Source: Haloarcula limicola (GTDB lineage: Archaea > Halobacteriota > Halobacteria > Halobacteriales > Haloarculaceae). From it: DNA of 64,000 nucleotides. Position 1 is the first letter of the stretch. Every line of letters starts with the position of its first letter. A program made the position numbers and the translations under genes. This document shows positions 3,624 to 18,078 of this stretch, piece by piece. Location of the stretch: the NCBI RefSeq assembly GCF_010119205.1, contig NZ_WRXM01000001.1, positions 1-64,000 of the forward strand, read 5' to 3'. The notes beneath the pieces were generated by a model that saw only the letters and a list, made by a program, of their open reading frames with translations, was not told the DNA's origin and made no database searches.

Positions 3624-3631
3624 CTTATAAT
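3624..3631 (+). promoter_or_regulatory. TATA-box promoter of the VWA-kinase-phosphatase block
   Basis: The AT-rich element CTTATAAT is centred 29 bases before the ATG at 3657, the spacing expected for a haloarchaeal leaderless transcript. It is the only clear promoter before the VWA, kinase and PP2C genes. The next TATA-like element (TTTTATT at 7305-7311) precedes the FHA/zinc-ribbon gene at 7342. Confidence 0.6.
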
Positions 3632-3656
3632 TAGGTCGTAAGTCCCTCTTACCAGT

Positions 3657-4841
3657 ATGACCGCGAACGTCGTGACCGACGCTAACCGGCCACACGTCCC
3701 GGGGGATGGGGCGAAGTTGACGGCCGAGATCGAAGTCGAACCCGGCCGACAGGACGAACGACCGACGCGCCAGATCGCGCTGTGTATCGACGCCAGCGGG
3801 TCGATGGCGGGCGAGGATATCGAACGCGCTCGGTCGGGGGCTGAGTGGGTGTTCGGACTGCTCGAAGACGACGACTACGTCTCCATCGTCGCCTTCGATA
3901 GCGACGTCGAAGTGATCCTCGAAGCGACGCGGTGGGGCGACATCTCACGCGAGGACGCGATGGACCACCTCGAGGAGATCGCCGCTGGCGGCGGGACGGA
4001 TATGTATCGCGGACTCGCGGCGGCCGCGGAGTCCCTGCGTCGGCTGCCGGACGACGCCACGACTGCGCGTCGCCTCCTGTTGCTCTCGGACGGTAAGGAC
4101 AACAGCCACGACCCGCCCGAGTTCGAGACGCTCGCGCGGGAGATCGACGCCGAGGGCATCCGCATCAAGTCGGCCGGTATCGGCAGCGACTACCGCAGGG
4201 AGACGATCCGGACGCTCGGCTCGACCGCACGCGGGGAGTGGACCCACCTCGAAGCGGCGGGCGACATCGAGCAGTTCTTCGGCGACGCCGTCGAGGAGGC
4301 CGGAACGCTCGTCGCGCCCGACGCGCAGCTGGAGTTGGACGTGGCCGAGGGCGTCGAAGTCAGTGAGGTCTACCGCGCGCTGCCACAGACACAGGAGGTC
4401 ACGCCCGAATGGCGGGACAACGCGACCGTCATCAAACTGCCGGACCTGCTGGACCGCGAGACCCAGCGCGTCGTGCTGAAGATACACGCGCCGCCGCGCG
4501 CGGTCGGTCAGGAGGTCACGCTCGCGGACGTGATGCTGACCGCCGGCGGCGAGACGGCGACCGGAGCCATCACCGTCGAGTACACCGACGACGCCGAGAA
4601 ACTCGGCGAGCACAACGAGCAGGTCGACGTCGACCACCGTCAGACCGTCATCAAGACGGAACTCGGGAAGGGCAACGTCGCGGAAGCCCAGACACAGATC
4701 GAGCGGATGACCCGAATCCACGGCGCGGACGCCGAAGCCGTCGAGTCCGCGGAGCGCCAGACACAGATCGTCATGGAGGGCGGCCGCGAGGAACAGAGCC
4801 GGGCGACGAAGATCGTCACCGACGAAGGACTCCAGAAGTGA
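3657..4841 (+). CDS. VWA domain protein, first gene of a phospho-signalling block
   Basis: A 394-residue protein with a central von Willebrand A domain (about residues 38-220). The metal-ion-dependent adhesion site is intact: DASGS at 45-49, the Thr of GGGTDM, and the Asp of LLSDGKDN. After it comes a beta-rich region and a helical C-terminus rich in Glu and Gln. VWA domains bind protein partners through a divalent metal. No signal peptide or membrane segment is seen, so it should act in the cytoplasm. The next two genes encode a kinase and a PP2C phosphatase, an arrangement like the bacterial TerY-type VWA/kinase/phosphatase triads. By analogy, not proof, it may be their substrate or scaffold. 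No tellurium-resistance genes are nearby. Confidence 0.85.
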   Translation: MTANVVTDANRPHVPGDGAKLTAEIEVEPGRQDERPTRQIALCIDASGSMAGEDIERARSGAEWVFGLLEDDDYVSIVAFDSDVEVILEATRWGDISREDAMDHLEEIAAGGGTDMYRGLAAAAESLRRLPDDATTARRLLLLSDGKDNSHDPPEFETLAREIDAEGIRIKSAGIGSDYRRETIRTLGSTARGEWTHLEAAGDIEQFFGDAVEEAGTLVAPDAQLELDVAEGVEVSEVYRALPQTQEVTPEWRDNATVIKLPDLLDRETQRVVLKIHAPPRAVGQEVTLADVMLTAGGETATGAITVEYTDDAEKLGEHNEQVDVDHRQTVIKTELGKGNVAEAQTQIERMTRIHGADAEAVESAERQTQIVMEGGREEQSRATKIVTDEGLQK

Positions 4842-4890
4842 CGACGGGCGAATCGGGTGAACCGAGCGAGGCGGCCGACCGAACCCGACG

Positions 4891-6132
4891 GTGAGCACCG
4901 TGACGTGGGAACCCGAACCGGGCGACGCCGTCGGCGGTCGGTACGAACTCGAGGAGTTCCTCGGGAAAGGCGGGTTCGCGAAGGCCTACCGGGCGCTCGA
5001 TCGGGAGACCGGCGACGCCGTCGTCCTGAAGCACCCGAACTACACGGAGTCACAGAACGACCGGAGCGTCATCGAGGAGTACTTCGAGAAGGAGGCGGAG
5101 TCGCTCGAACGCATCGCCGCGGCGGGCGGCCACGAGAACGTGATGGACCTCTACGACACGGTCCGGGAGCGTGACGTCCCCTTCCTCGTCGTCGAACTCG
5201 TCGAGGGCGGCATCGAACTCGACGGGGTCATCGACCGGCACGGCCCCATCGAGGACACCGAGCAGGTCCGCCGGATCGGTATCGACCTCGCGGACGCGAT
5301 GGGCTTCCTCCACGAGAACGAGATCGTCTATCGGGACTTGAAACCCGAGAACGTGATGCTCACGCCCGACATCACGCCGACGCTCATCGACTTCAACACG
5401 GCGACGGGGTTCGACGCCACCGGCGACCCGGCGACGGGCAACAACGGGACGACCATCCTCGGGCCGTTCAAACCCCGCGAGGTCGCGGAGGCGAGTCGGA
5501 CTGACGTCCGGCAGGGGCCGTGGTCCGACGTCTACTCTATCGGGAAGATCCTGCTCTTCCTGCTGAAGGGGAGCGTCCCGAAGAAAGACGGCGTCAACCC
5601 ACAGGAGTTCGGCGCGGACTGCGAGGACTACCTCGCGGAGATCGTCGAGCGCGCGACCCAGTCGGATTACCGGCATCGCTATCGCAACGCGACGGTGCTC
5701 AGAGACGTGCTGGAGGCCAAGGACCCGACGCCGCCCTCGACCGCTTCGGTCAGATACATCCAGGCCGACCAGCAGTTCACGGTCGAACCCGGCGACACGA
5801 TCGGCCGCGAGGGGGCGACCGGTCCGCCCGCGTCCATCACCATCGAGGACCCGCAGGGCGAGTACATCTCCTCGGTGCAGGTGCAGTTCGACACCCGCGA
5901 CGGGGAGTGGCACCTGGTCGACCGGAGTCTCAACGGCACGTTCGTCCAGAAGGGGTCGGGATGGCAGCGAGTGCTCTGCGAGGCGGGCCGCGAGCGCCTC
6001 CGACAGGAGGGCGAGGACCCGACGGACAGACACGGCGACGTGCCGCCGGAGTCGGTGCGACTGCGGGACGGCGACCTCGTCTCGCTCGTCCATCCGACCT
6101 ACGGCGTCACCTTCGAGTTTCACCCCGAGTGA
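4891..6132 (+). CDS. Ser/Thr protein kinase with C-terminal FHA domain
   Basis: A 413-residue Hanks-type kinase. The glycine loop is GKGGFA at 25-30, the ATP-anchoring lysine is K47, and the catalytic loop is YRDLKPEN at 147-154 with D149, K151 and N154. The metal-binding motif reads DFN (167-169) instead of DFG, and Tyr replaces the His of HRD. Residues about 290-410 form a forkhead-associated domain that should bind phosphothreonine, with GREGATG and SLNGTFV visible. The start is a GTG at 4891, 49 bases after the VWA stop; another GTG lies three codons on. The stop is 2 bases before the PP2C start, implying cotranscription. No membrane segment is present, unlike many bacterial PASTA kinases. 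Confidence 0.9.
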   Translation: MSTVTWEPEPGDAVGGRYELEEFLGKGGFAKAYRALDRETGDAVVLKHPNYTESQNDRSVIEEYFEKEAESLERIAAAGGHENVMDLYDTVRERDVPFLVVELVEGGIELDGVIDRHGPIEDTEQVRRIGIDLADAMGFLHENEIVYRDLKPENVMLTPDITPTLIDFNTATGFDATGDPATGNNGTTILGPFKPREVAEASRTDVRQGPWSDVYSIGKILLFLLKGSVPKKDGVNPQEFGADCEDYLAEIVERATQSDYRHRYRNATVLRDVLEAKDPTPPSTASVRYIQADQQFTVEPGDTIGREGATGPPASITIEDPQGEYISSVQVQFDTRDGEWHLVDRSLNGTFVQKGSGWQRVLCEAGRERLRQEGEDPTDRHGDVPPESVRLRDGDLVSLVHPTYGVTFEFHPE

Positions 6133-6134
6133 TC

Positions 6135-7289
6135 ATGCGATACGCAACCAACTACGACATCGGCGACCGGAAGCGCGGACGAGGAATCAACGAGGACAGC
6201 CTCTCGCTGACCGTCTTCGAGGAGGGACACCGCGACGGTTATCGGGGGCAGCAACGCTCGCCCGATAGCGGCGAGGCGTCGAGCGCGGACGCGGATGACG
6301 GCGACAGCGGGGCCGAGGATACGGACGAGCGAGAAACGGAAGACGAACGCGAGGGCCGCCCGGCCAACCGCTCGGCTGGCGTGTTCGTCCTCGCGGACGG
6401 CGCGGGCGGTCACGACGCGGGCGACGCGGCCTCCTACATCGCGACGACGGTCGTCGCCGAGCGGCTGGCTCCGGTCGCCATCCGCGCGGTTCGGAGCCAC
6501 CCGGACGGGTTCGACGTGGACATCGGGCCGAACGTGCTCCCCGAGACGCTCGGTCCCGAGGACATTCAGGCCGCTATCGAGAGCGCCGTCGTCGAAGCCC
6601 ACCGCGATATCGTTCGGTACGCCGACGAGTCGGGGTCGCAGTCGTACACGACGCTCGTCGCCGGCGTCTACGCCGACGGCAAGCTCCACCTCGGCTGGGT
6701 GGGCGACAGCCGTGCCTATCTCGTCAACCACGCCCGCGAGGAGATCGCCCGGCTGACCAAGGACCACGCCGTCGTCGAGGAGATGGCCGACGTCGGGGAG
6801 ATCGACGACGTGGAGGCGCACGTCCACCCGAACGGCAACGAGATAACGCGGGCGCTCGGCGGCTCCGGTCACGAGGACCCCGAACGGGCCTTCGTCGAGG
6901 TCGACACGCGGACCGTCCGGTTGTACGCCGAGGACACCATCCTCGCGACGAGCGACGGTCTCGTCGACGCCCAGACCGACGCGCCGGAGCTCTACGAGGA
7001 GTACGTGGATGCCGACCGCTCCGAAGCGGTCGCCGAGACCGTCCGCGAGGCGGTCGTCACCGACGACGAGATCCGAGACGTCCTTCTGGACGCCGACTCG
7101 CTCGCCGACGCCGCTCGGGAGTACGTCTCGGTGGCCAACGACCGCGGCGGAAAGGACAACATCTCCGTCCTCATGTTCGCCGACGAAACGCTTCCGCCGA
7201 CCCCCGAGACCGGTGGACTGCCGGTGCGGGCCGCAGACCCGGACGAAGACGTCGAAGACCGCGAGACGCTCATAATGTCAGACGAGTGA
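6135..7289 (+). CDS. PP2C-family protein phosphatase
   Basis: A 384-residue metal-dependent Ser/Thr phosphatase. The motifs appear in order: RGINEDS near residue 18, LADGAGGHDAGDA, the GWVGDSRAYL strand, ATSDGL, and GGKDNISV near the C-terminus, giving the Asp ligands of the two-metal centre. An acidic, low-complexity insert of about 40 residues (around 38-78) separates the first two motifs; it is longer than in typical bacterial PP2C proteins and probably a solvent-exposed loop. ATG 6135 is chosen because the family's N-terminal motif follows directly; a longer in-frame reading upstream overlaps the kinase and is not credible. It presumably reverses phosphorylation by the kinase two bases upstream. 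Confidence 0.9.
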   Translation: MRYATNYDIGDRKRGRGINEDSLSLTVFEEGHRDGYRGQQRSPDSGEASSADADDGDSGAEDTDERETEDEREGRPANRSAGVFVLADGAGGHDAGDAASYIATTVVAERLAPVAIRAVRSHPDGFDVDIGPNVLPETLGPEDIQAAIESAVVEAHRDIVRYADESGSQSYTTLVAGVYADGKLHLGWVGDSRAYLVNHAREEIARLTKDHAVVEEMADVGEIDDVEAHVHPNGNEITRALGGSGHEDPERAFVEVDTRTVRLYAEDTILATSDGLVDAQTDAPELYEEYVDADRSEAVAETVREAVVTDDEIRDVLLDADSLADAAREYVSVANDRGGKDNISVLMFADETLPPTPETGGLPVRAADPDEDVEDRETLIMSDE

Positions 7290-7341
7290 ACTTCAGGGGT
7301 AACGTTTTATTTCTCGCCGTGAAACCCGCCAACGAACGAGC

Positions 7342-8637
7342 ATGTCAGACGCAAGTACCGAACGTGGGGTGGAGTGCCCGATCTGCGGGGAGGAGTTCGA
7401 CCCGTCGACAGCGGGCGGGTGGTGTACGAATCCGGAGTGCGGGGAGTGGCAGTACACGGACGATAGCGATGTAGACGAGGCCACGGAAGCGGATAGTGAC
7501 GCGTCCACGGAGACGACTGCCGAGGAGTCTGACCGCGACTTGCTCTCCGAGACGGCGGAGCGTACCGACGACAGCGACTCCGTCGCCGACGCCGAGTCGA
7601 CCACCGGAGCGGCTTCAGGTGACGCCGGCGAGACAGACGACGCTGGTGAGACGGCCGAAGTGAGCGAGTGGGACGAGGACGTCGAGACGGCCGAAACCGA
7701 CGGCGTGGCGGAGGCGTCCGAGGAGGGCGCGCCCGCCGACGCCGCCGACGCGGAGCCGGCCCCGGACTCGCCGGGCGCGCCGGCCGGCGACGAGTCGCCC
7801 GAACCGGACGCCGAGGCGGCGACGAGCGACGCGCCGGCCGAGACGCCGGAGACGGCGACCGACGCGGGGGCCGACGAGACGACCGCCGGCGAGTCGGCGG
7901 GCGAAGAATCCGCGTCCGAGGAGTCGACTGCCGAAGTCGACGAACGCGACGAATCTGCCGTCGAGGCGAACGGGGCGACGGCTGCCGAAGCGGAATCGGA
8001 GACCGAGGATCGAGAGATGGCGGACGACGAGACCGCTGAAGCGGAGCCGGCGACCGTCGACTGTCCGGACTGCGGTGCGGACCTCGATCCCGAGGCCAAC
8101 TTCTGTCTGGAGTGTGGGGCCGACGTACAGGACCTCGAACCGGGCGAACCCGACCCCCTCGCGGAGTGCCCGGAGTGCGGTGCGGACGTCGACGAGGACG
8201 CCAACTTCTGTATGAACTGCGGCGAGGACCTCGACGCGCACCGGGGCGGTGAATCCGGTGGAGACGACTCGGGAAGTCAGGACGCCGTCGAGGCCCTGGA
8301 GGCACAGAGCGACGACGGCGAGACGGAGCCGGTCCCGGACTCGCTGGTGCTCGAAGTCGGCGGCGAGGAGATTCCGGTCGCCGACGGCGAGAAGGTCGGT
8401 CGGGAGATCCGAGCGGCGCTCATAGACGCCGGACGACCGGAGGACGAGGCGGTCCGAATCCACCGGGAACACGTCCGGTTCGTCCGCGAGGCAGACGCGT
8501 TCTACCTCGTCGATCTCGGTGACAACCCGACTCGGCTCAACGGTCAGACGCTCCAGAAGGGCGACCGGGAACCGGTCGCGCCGGGGGACGAACTCGAACT
8601 CTCCGGCGTCGCGACTGTCGCGATTCGAGCGCCCTGA
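7342..8637 (+). CDS. Zinc-ribbon and FHA domain adaptor with acidic linker
   Basis: A 431-residue protein in three parts. Residues 1-35 carry a Cys4 motif (CPICGEEF...CTNPECG). Residues about 45-230 are a disordered linker of Glu, Asp, Ala and Thr. Residues about 235-295 hold two zinc ribbons (CPDCGADLDPEANFCLECG and a second like it), and the C-terminal 100 residues look like an FHA domain, with EKVGREIR and NPTRLNGQTL visible. It should bind phosphothreonine without being an enzyme, a natural target of the upstream kinase. It has its own TATA-like element (7305-7311) about 30 bases upstream. A 186-bp part of the linker (7708-7893) is almost identical to part of the rpap1 gene 13 kb away. 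Confidence 0.75.
   Translation: MSDASTERGVECPICGEEFDPSTAGGWCTNPECGEWQYTDDSDVDEATEADSDASTETTAEESDRDLLSETAERTDDSDSVADAESTTGAASGDAGETDDAGETAEVSEWDEDVETAETDGVAEASEEGAPADAADAEPAPDSPGAPAGDESPEPDAEAATSDAPAETPETATDAGADETTAGESAGEESASEESTAEVDERDESAVEANGATAAEAESETEDREMADDETAEAEPATVDCPDCGADLDPEANFCLECGADVQDLEPGEPDPLAECPECGADVDEDANFCMNCGEDLDAHRGGESGGDDSGSQDAVEALEAQSDDGETEPVPDSLVLEVGGEEIPVADGEKVGREIRAALIDAGRPEDEAVRIHREHVRFVREADAFYLVDLGDNPTRLNGQTLQKGDREPVAPGDELELSGVATVAIRAP
7708..7893 (+). repeat. 186-bp duplicated segment, copy A (inverse of 20933-21118)
   Basis: This stretch encodes part of the acidic linker of the FHA/zinc-ribbon protein, from the Ala codon before EASEEG to the Glu of TTAGE. The reverse complement of 20933-21118 matches it with six mismatches in 186 by hand count (about 97 percent) and no gaps, in the same reading frame. 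A run of more than 60 bases is exactly identical. Outside these limits the two genes do not resemble each other. Confidence 0.9.
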
Positions 8638-8676
8638 CCGCACGAATTAAGCCATCACTTGGAGATACGTCACGTA

Positions 8677-9918
8677 ATGTCGGACGGGGTCCCCGCCGAA
8701 GAGTTTCGCCGGTCGCTGTCGCTGCTCGCCACCGAGTGGTGGGTACTCGTCGGCGGGCTCGCGGGGTACCTGTTCTACGGCACGTGGGTCGTCCTCACCG
8801 GGATTGCCGTCGGCCGCATCGTGCCAAGCTTCGCGGATGCAACCGTGCTGACCGTCGGCGGCGTGGCCATCACGGGACTCTCGGCCGCCGCCCTCGCGCT
8901 GTGGCTCCTCGCACCTGCGCTCGTAGCCGCGCGGCTGACGAACGGTCGGTTCCGAAACAGACACGGGAACCTCGCGAAGCGATACCGGCTGAACCACCCG
9001 AGTGTTCTCGTCGCGCCACCGGGGGCCCTCTTACTCGGCTGCCTGTTGGTGTCGCTCGCCATCGGGCCGACATTGGCCGTCACGGTTGTGGCGCTCGTAG
9101 CCAGCGTCCACCTGCTCGTACGGACCGTCGTCTACGGCTATCGGGTGTACTCGCTGTCGGTGCCGCCGCTGTTCACGCTGTTTCTCTACGTGACTGCCGC
9201 GATGCTCGCGGCCGGGTGGCTCGTTCAGGCGACGTTCCTCGGTAGCGTGAGTCCGTCCATCGGGAGGCTGCTGACCGCCGCTGGCGTCGACGGCGTCGTC
9301 GAGACGGGGTTCGAAATGACCGGCGTCGGCCCGAGTGCGGCGCTCGCCGCCGTGGTCGCGGTTCCCGCGCTCCTCTCGACGGCGTACCTCCTCGCTCAGC
9401 AGGTCGCCGGCGCGATCGTCAGGTCGAAAGCCCCCCTCGCCGAGCCGTCGCGCCGGCCCGGCCAGCGGTTCCCGATCATGCCGCCGGTCGCGCGGGCGGA
9501 AGGGGGACCAAGCGACGCTCGGGCCGAATCGACGAGTGACCGCGCTATCGAGGACGGAACGCTGCCGGACGAGGGCGGCGAGAGGGACGAGAACGCGGCC
9601 GATCGCGGGACGGTGGAGACCCCGGTCGAAGAACGAGGCGGAGACGACCGTTCCTCGAACACGCGGGTGTTCACGCCGGACGAAGCGGTTCCAGAAGAGA
9701 CGGAGACGAACGTGGGTGCGGGGGTGACGACGTTCGACGACGCGGACGATTCCGTGGATACCGAAGGCGAGGACGACGGGTGGCTGGACGACACGGCGGT
9801 GTTCTCGCCGGAGCGCCGCGACGCGTCAACGTCCGAGGCGTGTCCCGCCTGCGGCCGGGAGATCCCGCCGGAGACGACGGCGACGTTCTGTCCCGACTGC
9901 GGCGAGCGCCTCGACTAG
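8677..9918 (+). CDS. Six-TM membrane protein with C-terminal zinc ribbon
   Basis: A 413-residue protein of unknown function. About six hydrophobic helices occupy residues 15-260 (the first includes WWVLVGGLAGYLFYG). A cytoplasmic, acidic, low-complexity tail follows, ending in a Cys4 zinc ribbon (CPACGREIPPE...CPDCGERLD). ATG 8677 is preferred because the reading frame before it holds only six codons and the downstream sequence is the start of a typical acidic N-terminus. It follows the FHA/zinc-ribbon gene by 39 bases on the same strand and shares its Cys4 ribbon style, so it may be the membrane partner of the phospho-signalling block. Its stop codon overlaps the stop of archease on the other strand. 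Confidence 0.75.
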   Translation: MSDGVPAEEFRRSLSLLATEWWVLVGGLAGYLFYGTWVVLTGIAVGRIVPSFADATVLTVGGVAITGLSAAALALWLLAPALVAARLTNGRFRNRHGNLAKRYRLNHPSVLVAPPGALLLGCLLVSLAIGPTLAVTVVALVASVHLLVRTVVYGYRVYSLSVPPLFTLFLYVTAAMLAAGWLVQATFLGSVSPSIGRLLTAAGVDGVVETGFEMTGVGPSAALAAVVAVPALLSTAYLLAQQVAGAIVRSKAPLAEPSRRPGQRFPIMPPVARAEGGPSDARAESTSDRAIEDGTLPDEGGERDENAADRGTVETPVEERGGDDRSSNTRVFTPDEAVPEETETNVGAGVTTFDDADDSVDTEGEDDGWLDDTAVFSPERRDASTSEACPACGREIPPETTATFCPDCGERLD

Positions 9919-10325
9919 ACGTCGAAGACGACGTAAGCGCGCCAGCCGTCGGGCGTCGATTCGACGGCCATCTCGGAGTAGGTGACGGCTTTCACCTCTC
10001 TGGCGGTGACCGCTTCGAGCGGGACACCGCGGGCGCTCGCCTCGACGCGCCACTCGCCACCCTCCTCTGTGACGGCGGCGTCGTTTTCGACCGGGAGGAC
10101 GTTCCGAACGTCCCGCTCGTAGATGAGTTCGTCGAGGTAATCGAACAGGAGCGCCTCGACGGACTCCGCGGTGACGCGGAGGTCGAAGCGCTCGCCCGCG
10201 TCGGGGACCGTCTCGCACATCGCGGCGGCGAGGCCGTCGGCCATCGCGGCGAACGTCTCGTCGAGGGTCCCGCCGGTGGCCTCGACGGCGACGTCTGCCG
10301 TGTGGGAACGGAGGGTGAACGGCAT
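9915..10325 (-). CDS. Archease
   Basis: A 136-residue protein of the archease family, which promotes multiple turnover of the RNA ligase RtcB during tRNA splicing. Family features visible are the N-terminal HTADVAVEATG, the central LLFDYLDELIYERD helix, and the C-terminal EVKAVTYSEMAV strand; acidic residues that bind calcium in relatives (Asp of HTAD) are present. Full family length. Its TAG stop and the TAG of the convergent membrane protein gene share the palindrome CTAG. No rtcB gene is in this window. Confidence 0.92.
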   Translation of the reverse strand: MPFTLRSHTADVAVEATGGTLDETFAAMADGLAAAMCETVPDAGERFDLRVTAESVEALLFDYLDELIYERDVRNVLPVENDAAVTEEGGEWRVEASARGVPLEAVTAREVKAVTYSEMAVESTPDGWRAYVVFDV

Positions 10326-15249: not shown

Positions 15250-18078
15250 CTACCCCCAGAACGACTGCGTTCTGGCGTATTCCCGCTCCTGACGGAGGAT
15301 GTCCCGGTAGAACTCGTCTTCGTCCTCGCGCAGGCGGTTGATGATCCGCGCGGCGTTGTGCGGCCCGACGCCGCGGGCGGCGAGGGCGACGACGGCCTGC
15401 TTGCCGTGGGTCTGGACGAGCGACCCGGCGCGGTAAGCGCGCTCGGTCATCTTCTCCTGTTCCTCGTCCTTCTCGTCTGCTCGCACCGCCGACACGACCT
15501 CGTCGGCCCACGGGTTCAGCGCGGCGACGCGAGTGGACCCGCACTTCGGACACTCCGGCTGGTCTCGCACTCGCTTGACCTGCTGCTTGCGGTCCCACTC
15601 CCGACAGTGCAGACAGGCGAGGATGACGCGGTCGCTCTGGATCCGCTCTCGCACGGTCTGGATGACGCTCGCGTCGGCGTTCTCCGGCGAGAGCAGTTCG
15701 CGGCCCGAGGCGTTCCCGCCGAGACCGATTGGCGTGCGTTCGCCGACCGTTTCGAGGGCGACTTCGCCGGACTGGAGCGCTTCTAGCAGCGCCGCCGTCT
15801 CCTCGATGGCGAGGTCCTCGTGGCGCACCTCGCGCAACGCCTCGTCGTACATCGGCGTGTCTTCCAGCGCGGCGAGCAGTCGGTCACGACCGAAGTCCGT
15901 CGACCCGCGGCCGCGCCAGCGCTTGAGCGACCCGAACTTCGTGGCGACCTGCGCGAGCTTGAACTTCAGCGCGTCGGCGTTCTTCAGGCTCAACTCGACG
16001 AGCGCCGGGAGGTGGTCGGGGTCGGTCCCCTCTAAGACCTCCATCACGTCGCCGGCGCTGATGCGGCGAGGCACTTCGAGTTCGATGCGGTAGGGGTCGA
16101 CCTCCATCGCGACCGAGGACCCCGCCCGCTGGCCCAGCAGCGCCGAGAGGACGCGTCCCAGCGTCTCGTTGACCTTGTGGCCGTAACAGCAGTTGACGAG
16201 GACCTCCCGGCCGCGGAACTCCACGAGTATCGTCTCGGCGTCGGGGATCGGTGCCTCGTGGCCTTCCAGTTGCGAGAGCCCGTCGGCCACTGTCTCCCTG
16301 TCGGCGTCGTACCGGCGGGCGACGTGGGCCGCGACCGACTCGGCGGGCGCGCCCTCCTGTAACTGCTCGCCGGCGACTCGCCGCAGTTCGCCGACCTCGC
16401 CCGCGACGGCTCGTGGGACCGGAATCTCGCTTCCGACCCACGAAGGCACTTCGCCGGCGGGGTCCTCGATGGGGGAGACGGTCACGATTTCTTCCTCTTC
16501 GTCGATATTCGTGATGCGCCACATCTCGCCGCGCTGGACGAACACCTCGCCGGGGGTGGCGAAGTTGACGACGAACCGCTCGTCTAAGGTCCCGACCTGC
16601 TGGCCCGAGGCCACGTCCTCCACGTCGTAGGTGGCCTCGTCGGGGATCATCGAGAGGTTCTGATAGAAGTACTGCCACGTGCCGCGGCGCTTCTCCAGCG
16701 TGTCGCGGTCCTCGTCCAGCCAGACGACGTTGTTCTCGGCGAGTTCGCGGACGACTTCCTTGAACGCCGCTTCGTCGATATCGCGGAACGGGTAGGCCCG
16801 CGTGATGATGCGGTACGACTCCATCGCCCGCACCTCGCCGGTGTCCATCACGATACCGGCCAACTGGTTTGCGACGGTGTCGAGGCTCCCGTCGTGGATC
16901 TCGGCGGGTTCGACGTCGCCGTCCTGCGCCTGGCGGGCGATCGCCAGCGCCTCCAGCGTGTCGTCGGCGTGGGTCGTCACGACGGTCCCCGAGGATATCT
17001 CGTCGCGGCGGTGGCCGGCGCGGCCGACTCGCTGGACGAGCCTGGACACCTGCCGGGGACTGCCGTACTGGACGACGTGGTCGACCCGGCCCACGTCGAT
17101 GCCCAGTTCCATCGACGAGGTACAGAGCAGGGCGTCGAGCTCCCCGGCCTTGAACTGGTCTTCCACGTCGATTCGGGCCTCCTTCGAGAGCGACCCGTGG
17201 TGGACGCCGAGGTTCGTCCCGAGCTCTTTGAACCGCGAGCCGAGCGCCTCGGCGGTCTGTCGCGTGTTGACGAACAGCAGGACGGACTCGTTCTCCCGTA
17301 TCAGGTCGTCGATGAAGCGGACGTGACTGGCCGTCTCGGCGTCGGTGACCAGTTCGCGGGAGAGCCGCTCGTCGCGGTCGGTCACCTGCGGTCGCACCAC
17401 GTTCACGTCCAGTCGGCTGCCGATGTCCACCGCGACGACGGAACACCCGCGGCCGCCGGTGAGGAAGCGCCCGACTTCCCGTGGGTCGCCCACCGTCGCT
17501 GAGAGGCCGATTCGCTGAAACGGGCCCGAAACTTCGCGCAATCGTTCGAGTCCGACCGTCAACTGCGCGCCGCGCTTGGCCGCGGCGAGTTCGTGGACTT
17601 CGTCGACGACGACGTGGTCCACGTCTTCGAGCGCCGTCCGGAGTTTCGACCCCGTGAGCATCGCCTGCAGCGTCTCGGGGGTCGTCACGAGCACGTCCGG
17701 CGGGTCGTTGGCCTGCTTCTGGCGCTGGTAGTCGGTCGTGTCCCCGTGTCGGACGTCCACGTCCAAGTCGAGCGTCTCGCCCCACCACTCCAGCCGCTCG
17801 CGCATGTCGCGGTTGAGCGCCCGCAGCGGCGTGATGTACAGCGCGCCGATGCCGAACCGCTCCTCGTCGGCCGACGCGAGCGCGTCCAACACGGGCAGCA
17901 TCGCCGTCTCGGTCTTGCCGGTGCCGGTCGGGGCGACGACGAGCGCGTCCTCGCCGCGCGCGAGACGGGGAATCGCCTCGCGCTGCGGTTCCGTCGGCGT
18001 CGTGAACCCGCGCTCGGAGAGGGCGCTTCGCACCTCGTCGCCGAGCACGCTGAACGCCGCGACACCGGTCTCACTCAT
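15250..18078 (-). CDS. lhr: ATP-dependent helicase Lhr
   Basis: A 942-residue superfamily 2 helicase of the Lhr type, a 3'-5' DNA or RNA:DNA unwinding enzyme of DNA repair. Visible motifs are APTGTGKTE at 49-57 (I), DEVHEL (II), LSATVGD (III), a FVNTRQTAE region, and QRVGRAGHRRD (VI), followed by the winged-helix and long Lhr-specific core. A zinc-binding group CLHC...CPKCG lies in the C-terminal part. Length is that of a full archaeal Lhr. The DNA repair genes rpa1, rpap1 and rpe lie a few kb to the right. The start ATG 18078 directly precedes the motif-bearing domain. Confidence 0.93.
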   Translation of the reverse strand: MSETGVAAFSVLGDEVRSALSERGFTTPTEPQREAIPRLARGEDALVVAPTGTGKTETAMLPVLDALASADEERFGIGALYITPLRALNRDMRERLEWWGETLDLDVDVRHGDTTDYQRQKQANDPPDVLVTTPETLQAMLTGSKLRTALEDVDHVVVDEVHELAAAKRGAQLTVGLERLREVSGPFQRIGLSATVGDPREVGRFLTGGRGCSVVAVDIGSRLDVNVVRPQVTDRDERLSRELVTDAETASHVRFIDDLIRENESVLLFVNTRQTAEALGSRFKELGTNLGVHHGSLSKEARIDVEDQFKAGELDALLCTSSMELGIDVGRVDHVVQYGSPRQVSRLVQRVGRAGHRRDEISSGTVVTTHADDTLEALAIARQAQDGDVEPAEIHDGSLDTVANQLAGIVMDTGEVRAMESYRIITRAYPFRDIDEAAFKEVVRELAENNVVWLDEDRDTLEKRRGTWQYFYQNLSMIPDEATYDVEDVASGQQVGTLDERFVVNFATPGEVFVQRGEMWRITNIDEEEEIVTVSPIEDPAGEVPSWVGSEIPVPRAVAGEVGELRRVAGEQLQEGAPAESVAAHVARRYDADRETVADGLSQLEGHEAPIPDAETILVEFRGREVLVNCCYGHKVNETLGRVLSALLGQRAGSSVAMEVDPYRIELEVPRRISAGDVMEVLEGTDPDHLPALVELSLKNADALKFKLAQVATKFGSLKRWRGRGSTDFGRDRLLAALEDTPMYDEALREVRHEDLAIEETAALLEALQSGEVALETVGERTPIGLGGNASGRELLSPENADASVIQTVRERIQSDRVILACLHCREWDRKQQVKRVRDQPECPKCGSTRVAALNPWADEVVSAVRADEKDEEQEKMTERAYRAGSLVQTHGKQAVVALAARGVGPHNAARIINRLREDEDEFYRDILRQEREYARTQSFWG

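Follow-up and report, generated by a model that had tools for sequence, protein, structure and literature searches.

Introduction

Three described systems come closest to the locus reported here. In the ArnA-ArnB system of Sulfolobus acidocaldarius and Saccharolobus islandicus, which includes the kinases ArnC and ArnD and the phosphatase PP2A, the zinc finger of ArnA holds unphosphorylated ArnB loosely; phosphorylation by ArnC of threonine in the helical bundle of ArnB leads to tight binding by the ArnA FHA domain, and PP2A reverses the process (PMC12852372, PMC6509490). In ArnB itself a beta-sandwich is interrupted by the VWA domain, and a regulatory helical bundle forms the C-terminus (PMC12852372, where structurally related products in Halorubrum are also mentioned), and arnA adjoins arnB in Sulfolobus. 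The second system, TerY-P, combines a TerY-like VWA protein and a PP2C phosphatase with a kinase bearing a C-terminal zinc ribbon (PMC11090510). In the third, the GarA/OdhI switch of Actinobacteria with the kinases PknG and PknB, PknG phosphorylates the GarA peptide SDEVTVETTSVFRADFL, which GarA's own FHA domain then binds. Here we describe a block of five consecutive forward-strand open reading frames at positions 3657-9918 of a 64,000-nucleotide stretch of Haloarcula limicola DNA (the window), encoding in order a VWA protein, a kinase-FHA fusion, a PP2C phosphatase, a zinc-ribbon protein with an FHA domain (ribbon-FHA protein) and a protein with six transmembrane (TM) helices and a C-terminal ribbon (membrane protein).

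The block is a real, conserved operon and, by its architecture, a variant of the Arn-type switch, not a TerY-P triad. An earlier note on this DNA had proposed a single phospho-signalling module with a writer, an eraser and readers, and the analysis supports this; we think it probable, though by no means certain, that the block works as a phosphothreonine switch like that of ArnA and ArnB, self-contained and coupled to the membrane.

Domain composition of the block

The five same-strand genes and the domains that the note had named are borne out by the open reading frames, Pfam matches, FHA matches in homologues, the positions of the Cys4 ribbons and the TM helices of AlphaFold models. Protein 1 matches the Pfam VWA domain (2.5e-15), and the residues of its metal-ion-dependent adhesion site (MIDAS; D45, S47, S49, T114 and D145) are all intact, as are the catalytic residues of the kinase and the phosphatase. 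Protein 2 matches Pkinase (1.9e-29) and FHA (2.1e-6) and contains the kinase motifs GKGGFA, VVLK, YRDLKPEN and DFN. Protein 3 matches Pfam PP2C_2 (1.4e-9) and NCBIfam Stp1 (1.9e-42, under that model's cut-off), and the motifs RGINEDS, DGAGGHD, GDSR, SDGL and KDN are present. Protein 4 has three Cys4 ribbons starting at C12, C241 and C276, with zinc ribbon Pfam matches in the block of up to 5e-15. The AlphaFold model of protein 5, which is of middling confidence, has six TM helices spanning residues 21-251 and a disordered linker between TM6 and the Cys4 ribbon at C389-C408. A fold search with this model gave no match at E < 0.001, a result that, given the model's confidence, carries no information on fold novelty.

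These are also the only such proteins detected in the genome: H. limicola has one detectable FHA, one Hanks kinase above the cut-off and one PP2C_2, all in the block. Across 126 Halobacteria, every FHA match (17 matches in 9 genomes) lies in or beside module loci, in a scan that is not fully sensitive, having missed the FHA domain of the window kinase and being blind to the window ribbon-FHA protein, which is invisible to Pfam. These matches conflict with a 2023 paper according to which, among archaea, FHA proteins are conserved in Crenarchaeota alone (PMC10470591).

ArnB-like and ArnA-like proteins

When the single VWA sequence was searched, the top solved structure was ArnB of the Sulfolobus ArnA-ArnB complex (PDB 8S05, 1.7e-11), and a profile of 11 homologues compared with the PDB ranked ArnB (8s05_A, 2.2e-24) above every other VWA structure. 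In the AlphaFold model (predicted local distance difference test, pLDDT, 88) two strands are followed by the VWA domain, the remaining beta-sandwich, four C-terminal helices and a tail disordered from residue 385, and the model aligns to ArnB 8s05_A over 352 residues (Z 31.8, root-mean-square deviation 3.5). As modelled, the protein has the full ArnB architecture. Four other loci (L049, L050, L051 and L088) hold a full-length ArnB-like VWA gene (about 26-34% identical) with no relatives of the kinase, PP2C or ribbon-FHA genes nearby; in L050 it is followed by an Hsp70-like gene.

The FHA domain of protein 4 has no Pfam match in the window sequence itself, and is matched in 10 of 12 homologues (best 4.5e-9). 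The family profile matches the GarA FHA (3e-5), the Rad53 FHA and the ArnA ribbon (8s05_C, 0.0018; 5a8i, 0.0058), and in the 12 homologues the N-terminal cysteines are invariant and the FHA domain is C-terminal. Judged from its sequence, the protein has the ArnA layout of N-terminal zinc finger, linker and C-terminal FHA domain. In Haloferax gibbonsii and Natrialbaceae the VWA gene follows immediately on the ribbon-FHA gene, the two being neighbours as in Sulfolobus, whereas in the window the kinase and PP2C genes lie between them. The note's view of the zinc-ribbon FHA protein as a lineage-specific addition finds no support; the protein is instead an ArnA-like partner of the ArnB-like VWA protein.

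The likeness to ArnA-ArnB thus comprises a VWA protein with split beta-sandwich and helical bundle, a partner of ArnA layout with a long linker, a Hanks-type kinase and, in two lineages, adjoining FHA and VWA genes. The differences are that the haloarchaeal kinase carries its own FHA domain and sits in the operon, that the ArnA-like protein has three ribbons, that a six-TM ribbon protein is added, and that the hosts are Halobacteria, not Thermoproteota. Control of archaellum genes belongs to the Sulfolobus module.

The block also shares three protein classes with TerY-P (VWA, PP2C and Ser/Thr kinase), with the PP2C gene in the same operon, and the earlier note had drawn this comparison. It finds no support, for two reasons. 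First, the C-terminus of the kinase is an FHA domain, not a ribbon. Second, the VWA protein is not TerY-like but of ArnB type, with beta-sandwich and helical bundle, and is matched over its whole chain. Together these rule out membership of TerY-P. Among the nearest neighbours, no tellurium or DNA-processing genes directly adjoin the block.

Distribution and gene order

Full-length relatives of the VWA, kinase and PP2C proteins are found together in 18 of the 126 Halobacteria genomes, including all nine sampled from the genus. A scan of named genomes yielded 37 haloarchaeal loci; because its seeds were VWA patterns, it misses any locus that lacks a VWA gene and does not amount to a census. Pairwise distances of the VWA, kinase and PP2C proteins correlate at 0.92-0.95, as in co-inherited genes. 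The VWA-kinase-PP2C order is present in 36 of the 37, and the exact five-gene order in 22, a recurrence that makes the block more than a chance arrangement. The comparison across Halobacteria that the earlier note had suggested therefore gives an order conserved over several genera and not confined to one genome. In Natrialbaceae the usual order starts with the membrane gene, which lies on the opposite strand, and continues with ribbon-FHA, VWA, kinase and PP2C, often followed by a second FHA-kinase. One genome, Halobacteria archaeon HArc-gm2, has two copies of the module (L066 and L081), one of Haloarcula type and one of Natrialbaceae type, which suggests horizontal transfer.

The distribution also bears on the idea of a TerY-P-like or PD-T4-6-like antiviral module, in which the kinase would sense infection and the other proteins execute or restrain the response. 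Occurrence over the Halobacteria is patchy, VWA-PP2C-kinase triads are found with defence systems (PMC11090510), and the kinase scores well on the PD-T4-6 models of PADLOC (7.6e-37 over the kinase domain). This score, however, is the level expected of a generic kinase, and none of the other four proteins matches a PADLOC model. The kinase fusion is to FHA rather than to a ribbon or OB domain, the VWA protein is of ArnB type, the block contains no effector gene, the module is present in the same gene order in every sampled genome of the genus, and the bacterial VWA loci fetched in the VWA-seeded scan have no kinase or PP2C relatives of the module nearby. We regard an antiviral role of this kind as very improbable.

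A different question is whether the block is two separate systems that merely lie side by side, one of VWA, kinase and PP2C and the other, independent of it, of the ribbon-FHA and membrane proteins. The earlier note had treated the last two genes as uncertain members that might have their own promoters. A T-rich or AT-rich element lies 5' of gene 4, and a similar one is present in most Haloarcula relatives but not in all genera. In QS_4_69_31 (L074) genes 4 and 5 lie together several kilobases from the triad, and in four genomes with the triad but without genes 4 and 5 nearby (Salinibaculum KK48, a Salinirussus metagenome-assembled genome (MAG), Tc-Br11 and a Halovenus MAG) they are adjacent to each other elsewhere; in Halomicrobium the membrane gene is about 200 kb from the triad. 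The element and the joint relocation suggest a second promoter and transcription unit, and this part of the note's suggestion stands. Every genome with relocated genes 4 and 5 nonetheless retains both units, and in Natrialbaceae and Haloferax the ribbon-FHA gene is found at the opposite end of the triad, immediately preceding VWA, so that the two units have rejoined in different orders. ArnA and ArnB, furthermore, are known partners. Genes 4 and 5 stay paired when relocated, and in Natrialbaceae the module is flanked by relatives of the membrane gene; both genes belong to the module and are not independent of the first three, and two unrelated systems side by side seem unlikely.

A single-sequence search had confined the membrane gene to Haloarcula and its nearest relatives (12 of 126 genomes). 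This was overturned by the Natrialbaceae neighbourhoods and by a comparison of membrane protein profiles between Haloarculaceae and Natrialbaceae (E 5e-18 and probability 99 across the TM region, values to be taken with care given the few sequences and hydrophobic composition).

A conserved threonine motif in the membrane protein linker

What is new here is a threonine motif that is conserved in all 34 membrane protein homologues amid an otherwise unconserved linker. There are several lines of evidence. First, the pattern T[RQ][VI][FY] is present exactly once in each of 29 homologues. Second, it is found in all 17 non-redundant linkers, with the threonine invariant, and its four positions carry 3.3-5.4 bits of information compared with mostly 0.4-1.0 in the surrounding linker. 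Third, among five held-out homologues the motif (allowing K beside R and Q, as T[RQK][VI][FY]) is present in all five, two of which end shortly past it and have lost the ribbon. Fourth, a search of 145 neighbourhood proteins (61,452 aa) gave just three occurrences, all in membrane homologues. In 20,000 shuffles of the 17 linkers the motif was present 0.035 times on average and at most twice, but because shuffling ignores shared descent the case is carried by the contrast with the flanking linker and by the held-out homologues.

The motif resembles the GarA phosphopeptide ETTSVFRADF (with its TSVF motif), as in DTQIFTADF of L046 and DTRIFADDF of L080. As in the GarA/OdhI switch, an FHA domain, a threonine kinase and a disordered threonine motif are brought together; GarA, however, is a single soluble protein that contains both motif and FHA domain, whereas the motif described here belongs to a membrane protein distinct from the FHA proteins, and no metabolic enzymes are known to take part.

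Similar sites occur in the tails of two other block proteins (Table 1). A threonine motif (typically R[ED]T-x-[ILV]) lies about 30 residues past KDN-S and the catalytic domain in 34 of 36 PP2C homologues, the two others having DWETVLM and NWDTVKR, and the VWA tail sequence T-[KQRT]-[IV]-V (T-x-[IV]-V) is kept in most homologues from Haloarculaceae and Natrialbaceae. No conserved tail threonine motif of this kind was found in the two FHA proteins. In Haloarculaceae the activation segment of the kinase (residues 185-192) keeps GTTILGP, which is also of the form T-x-hydrophobic-hydrophobic, and the kinase may autophosphorylate there, at a site akin to those in the tails.

Near the module in Haloferax gibbonsii (L085, about 15915-16500, + strand) and in L172 are two small proteins that end in T-[QK]-[VL]-Y followed by a Cys4 ribbon (SSDTQVYRGG... 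and NEDTKLYRGF...). They resemble neither each other nor the membrane protein, and the combination of threonine motif and ribbon may be a portable docking tag.

Proposed mechanism

In the switch that we propose, the FHA-kinase would phosphorylate threonine motifs in the helical bundle and tail of the VWA protein, in the PP2C tail and in the membrane protein linker, and the FHA domains of the kinase and the ribbon-FHA protein would bind the phosphorylated motifs. The ribbons would give a weaker, phosphate-independent contact, after the manner of Sulfolobus ArnAB. PP2C, the sole one detectable in the genome, would remove the phosphates and be recruited through its own tail, and the six-TM protein would anchor, gate or sense at the membrane. 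As output, the ArnA/ArnB-like pair would probably be released or captured, and gene expression or a process at the membrane controlled in this way. Lineages differ in how many FHA readers they have: in Natrialbaceae and Haloferax (L043-L048, L079-L082 and L086) the module PP2C ends in an FHA-like domain, and there is often a second FHA-kinase gene, either following or divergent.

Four points weigh against this proposal. First, the block has the architecture of an Arn module but its phosphatase is a PP2C in place of the PP2A of Sulfolobus (PP2A was not searched for elsewhere in the genome). Second, in structural comparison the VWA protein is nearest to a bacterial one (4FX5 of Catenulispora acidiphila; Z 34.8 over 363 residues, the whole chain), so that likeness to ArnB need not mean descent from ArnB specifically. 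Third, ribbon-FHA proteins of Haloarcula, including that of the window, have histidine (IHREH) where Natrialbaceae retain the usual phosphothreonine-contacting serine, which makes phosphothreonine binding by this domain uncertain. Fourth, the profile of the membrane motif, scanned over the VWA, PP2C and kinase proteins, did not consistently pick the tail sites; the motifs are similar rather than identical, and one shared docking code is a hypothesis.

The serine-to-histidine change would also fit an account in which the conserved threonine motifs are phosphate-independent protein-binding motifs and the kinase and FHA domains act on other proteins. Phosphorylation of the motifs is something we infer, and FHA domains such as GarA can bind partners without phosphate, to go by the title of Nott et al. 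2009 as cited in PMC8546545. The threonine of the membrane motif is invariant, however, and a peptide that the motif matches is known to undergo phosphorylation and FHA binding; we judge this account improbable, and continue to favor a phosphothreonine switch.

More speculatively, some Halobacteria could have the whole of a phosphothreonine code at a single locus, in which the only detectable FHA-kinase, PP2C and FHA reader would work on a common T-x-hydrophobic-hydrophobic motif of the VWA, PP2C and six-TM proteins, and an Arn switch would be assembled and disassembled at the membrane, a branch not known from Sulfolobus. We put this forward tentatively, as a possibility that may well prove wrong.

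Features of the locus and its surroundings

The positions of genes, candidate phosphosites and putative promoter elements are collected in Table 1. Comparison with named relatives assigns the window to the genus Haloarcula; its VWA protein is closest to that of Haloarcula amylovorans (94% identical). The genes of the block are separated by 49, 2, 52 and 39 bases, and the membrane protein gene has a possible alternative in-frame TTG start at 8659. The TATA candidate CTTATAATT upstream of the VWA gene is kept in other Haloarcula species and may serve as the promoter of the operon; scans for sigma-70 promoters and intrinsic terminators are inapplicable to archaeal promoters. A NikR-like regulator lies upstream and an archease downstream, both on the minus strand, and an esterase is also among the nearest neighbors. 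The archease gene (9915-10325, minus strand) is convergent with the membrane protein gene, and their stop codons overlap by four bases.

Table 1. Genes, candidate phosphosites and candidate promoter elements of the block, with positions in the window
Feature	Position	Strand	Description
Candidate operon TATA box CTTATAATT, with GGGGAAAA just before	3624..3632	+	About 30 nt 5' of the VWA ATG
ArnB-like VWA protein	3657..4841	+	394 aa; split beta-sandwich, VWA with intact MIDAS, C-terminal helical bundle, disordered tail
Thr384 codon, VWA tail motif ATKIVTDEG	4806..4808	+	Candidate phosphosite (inferred), at start of tail with pLDDT<50
Hanks-type Ser/Thr kinase with FHA	4891..6132	+	GTG start, 413 aa; kinase residues 18-252, C-terminal FHA from residue 303
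PP2C phosphatase with flexible C-terminal tail	6135..7289	+	ATG at 6135, 384 aa
Thr378 codon, PP2C tail motif EDRETLIMSDE	7266..7268	+	Candidate phosphosite (inferred)
Candidate internal TATA-like element GTTTTATTT	7304..7312	+	5' of the ribbon-FHA gene
ArnA-like ribbon-FHA protein	7342..8637	+	431 aa; N-terminal Cys4 ribbon, long acidic linker, two Cys4 ribbons, C-terminal FHA
Six-TM membrane protein	8677..9918	+	ATG at 8677, 413 aa; disordered linker, C-terminal Cys4 ribbon
Thr329 codon, linker motif SNTRVFTPDE	9661..9663	+	GarA-like candidate FHA ligand
Thr373 codon, second similar site DDTAVFSPE	9793..9795	+	Second copy limited to Haloarcula homologues

Implications

FHA-based phosphothreonine signalling in archaea has been studied almost only in Sulfolobales. 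The locus described here is a more complete version in Halobacteria, with kinase, phosphatase, reader and probable substrate together as sole detectable copies, and the ArnB-like protein would allow the Sulfolobus model of loose and tight complexes to be examined in another phylum. A single-copy module is open to gene deletion in easily grown archaea, and the module is present in a Haloferax species; the linker motif gives the exact residues to examine. The locus could thereby reveal where Arn-type signalling meets the membrane.

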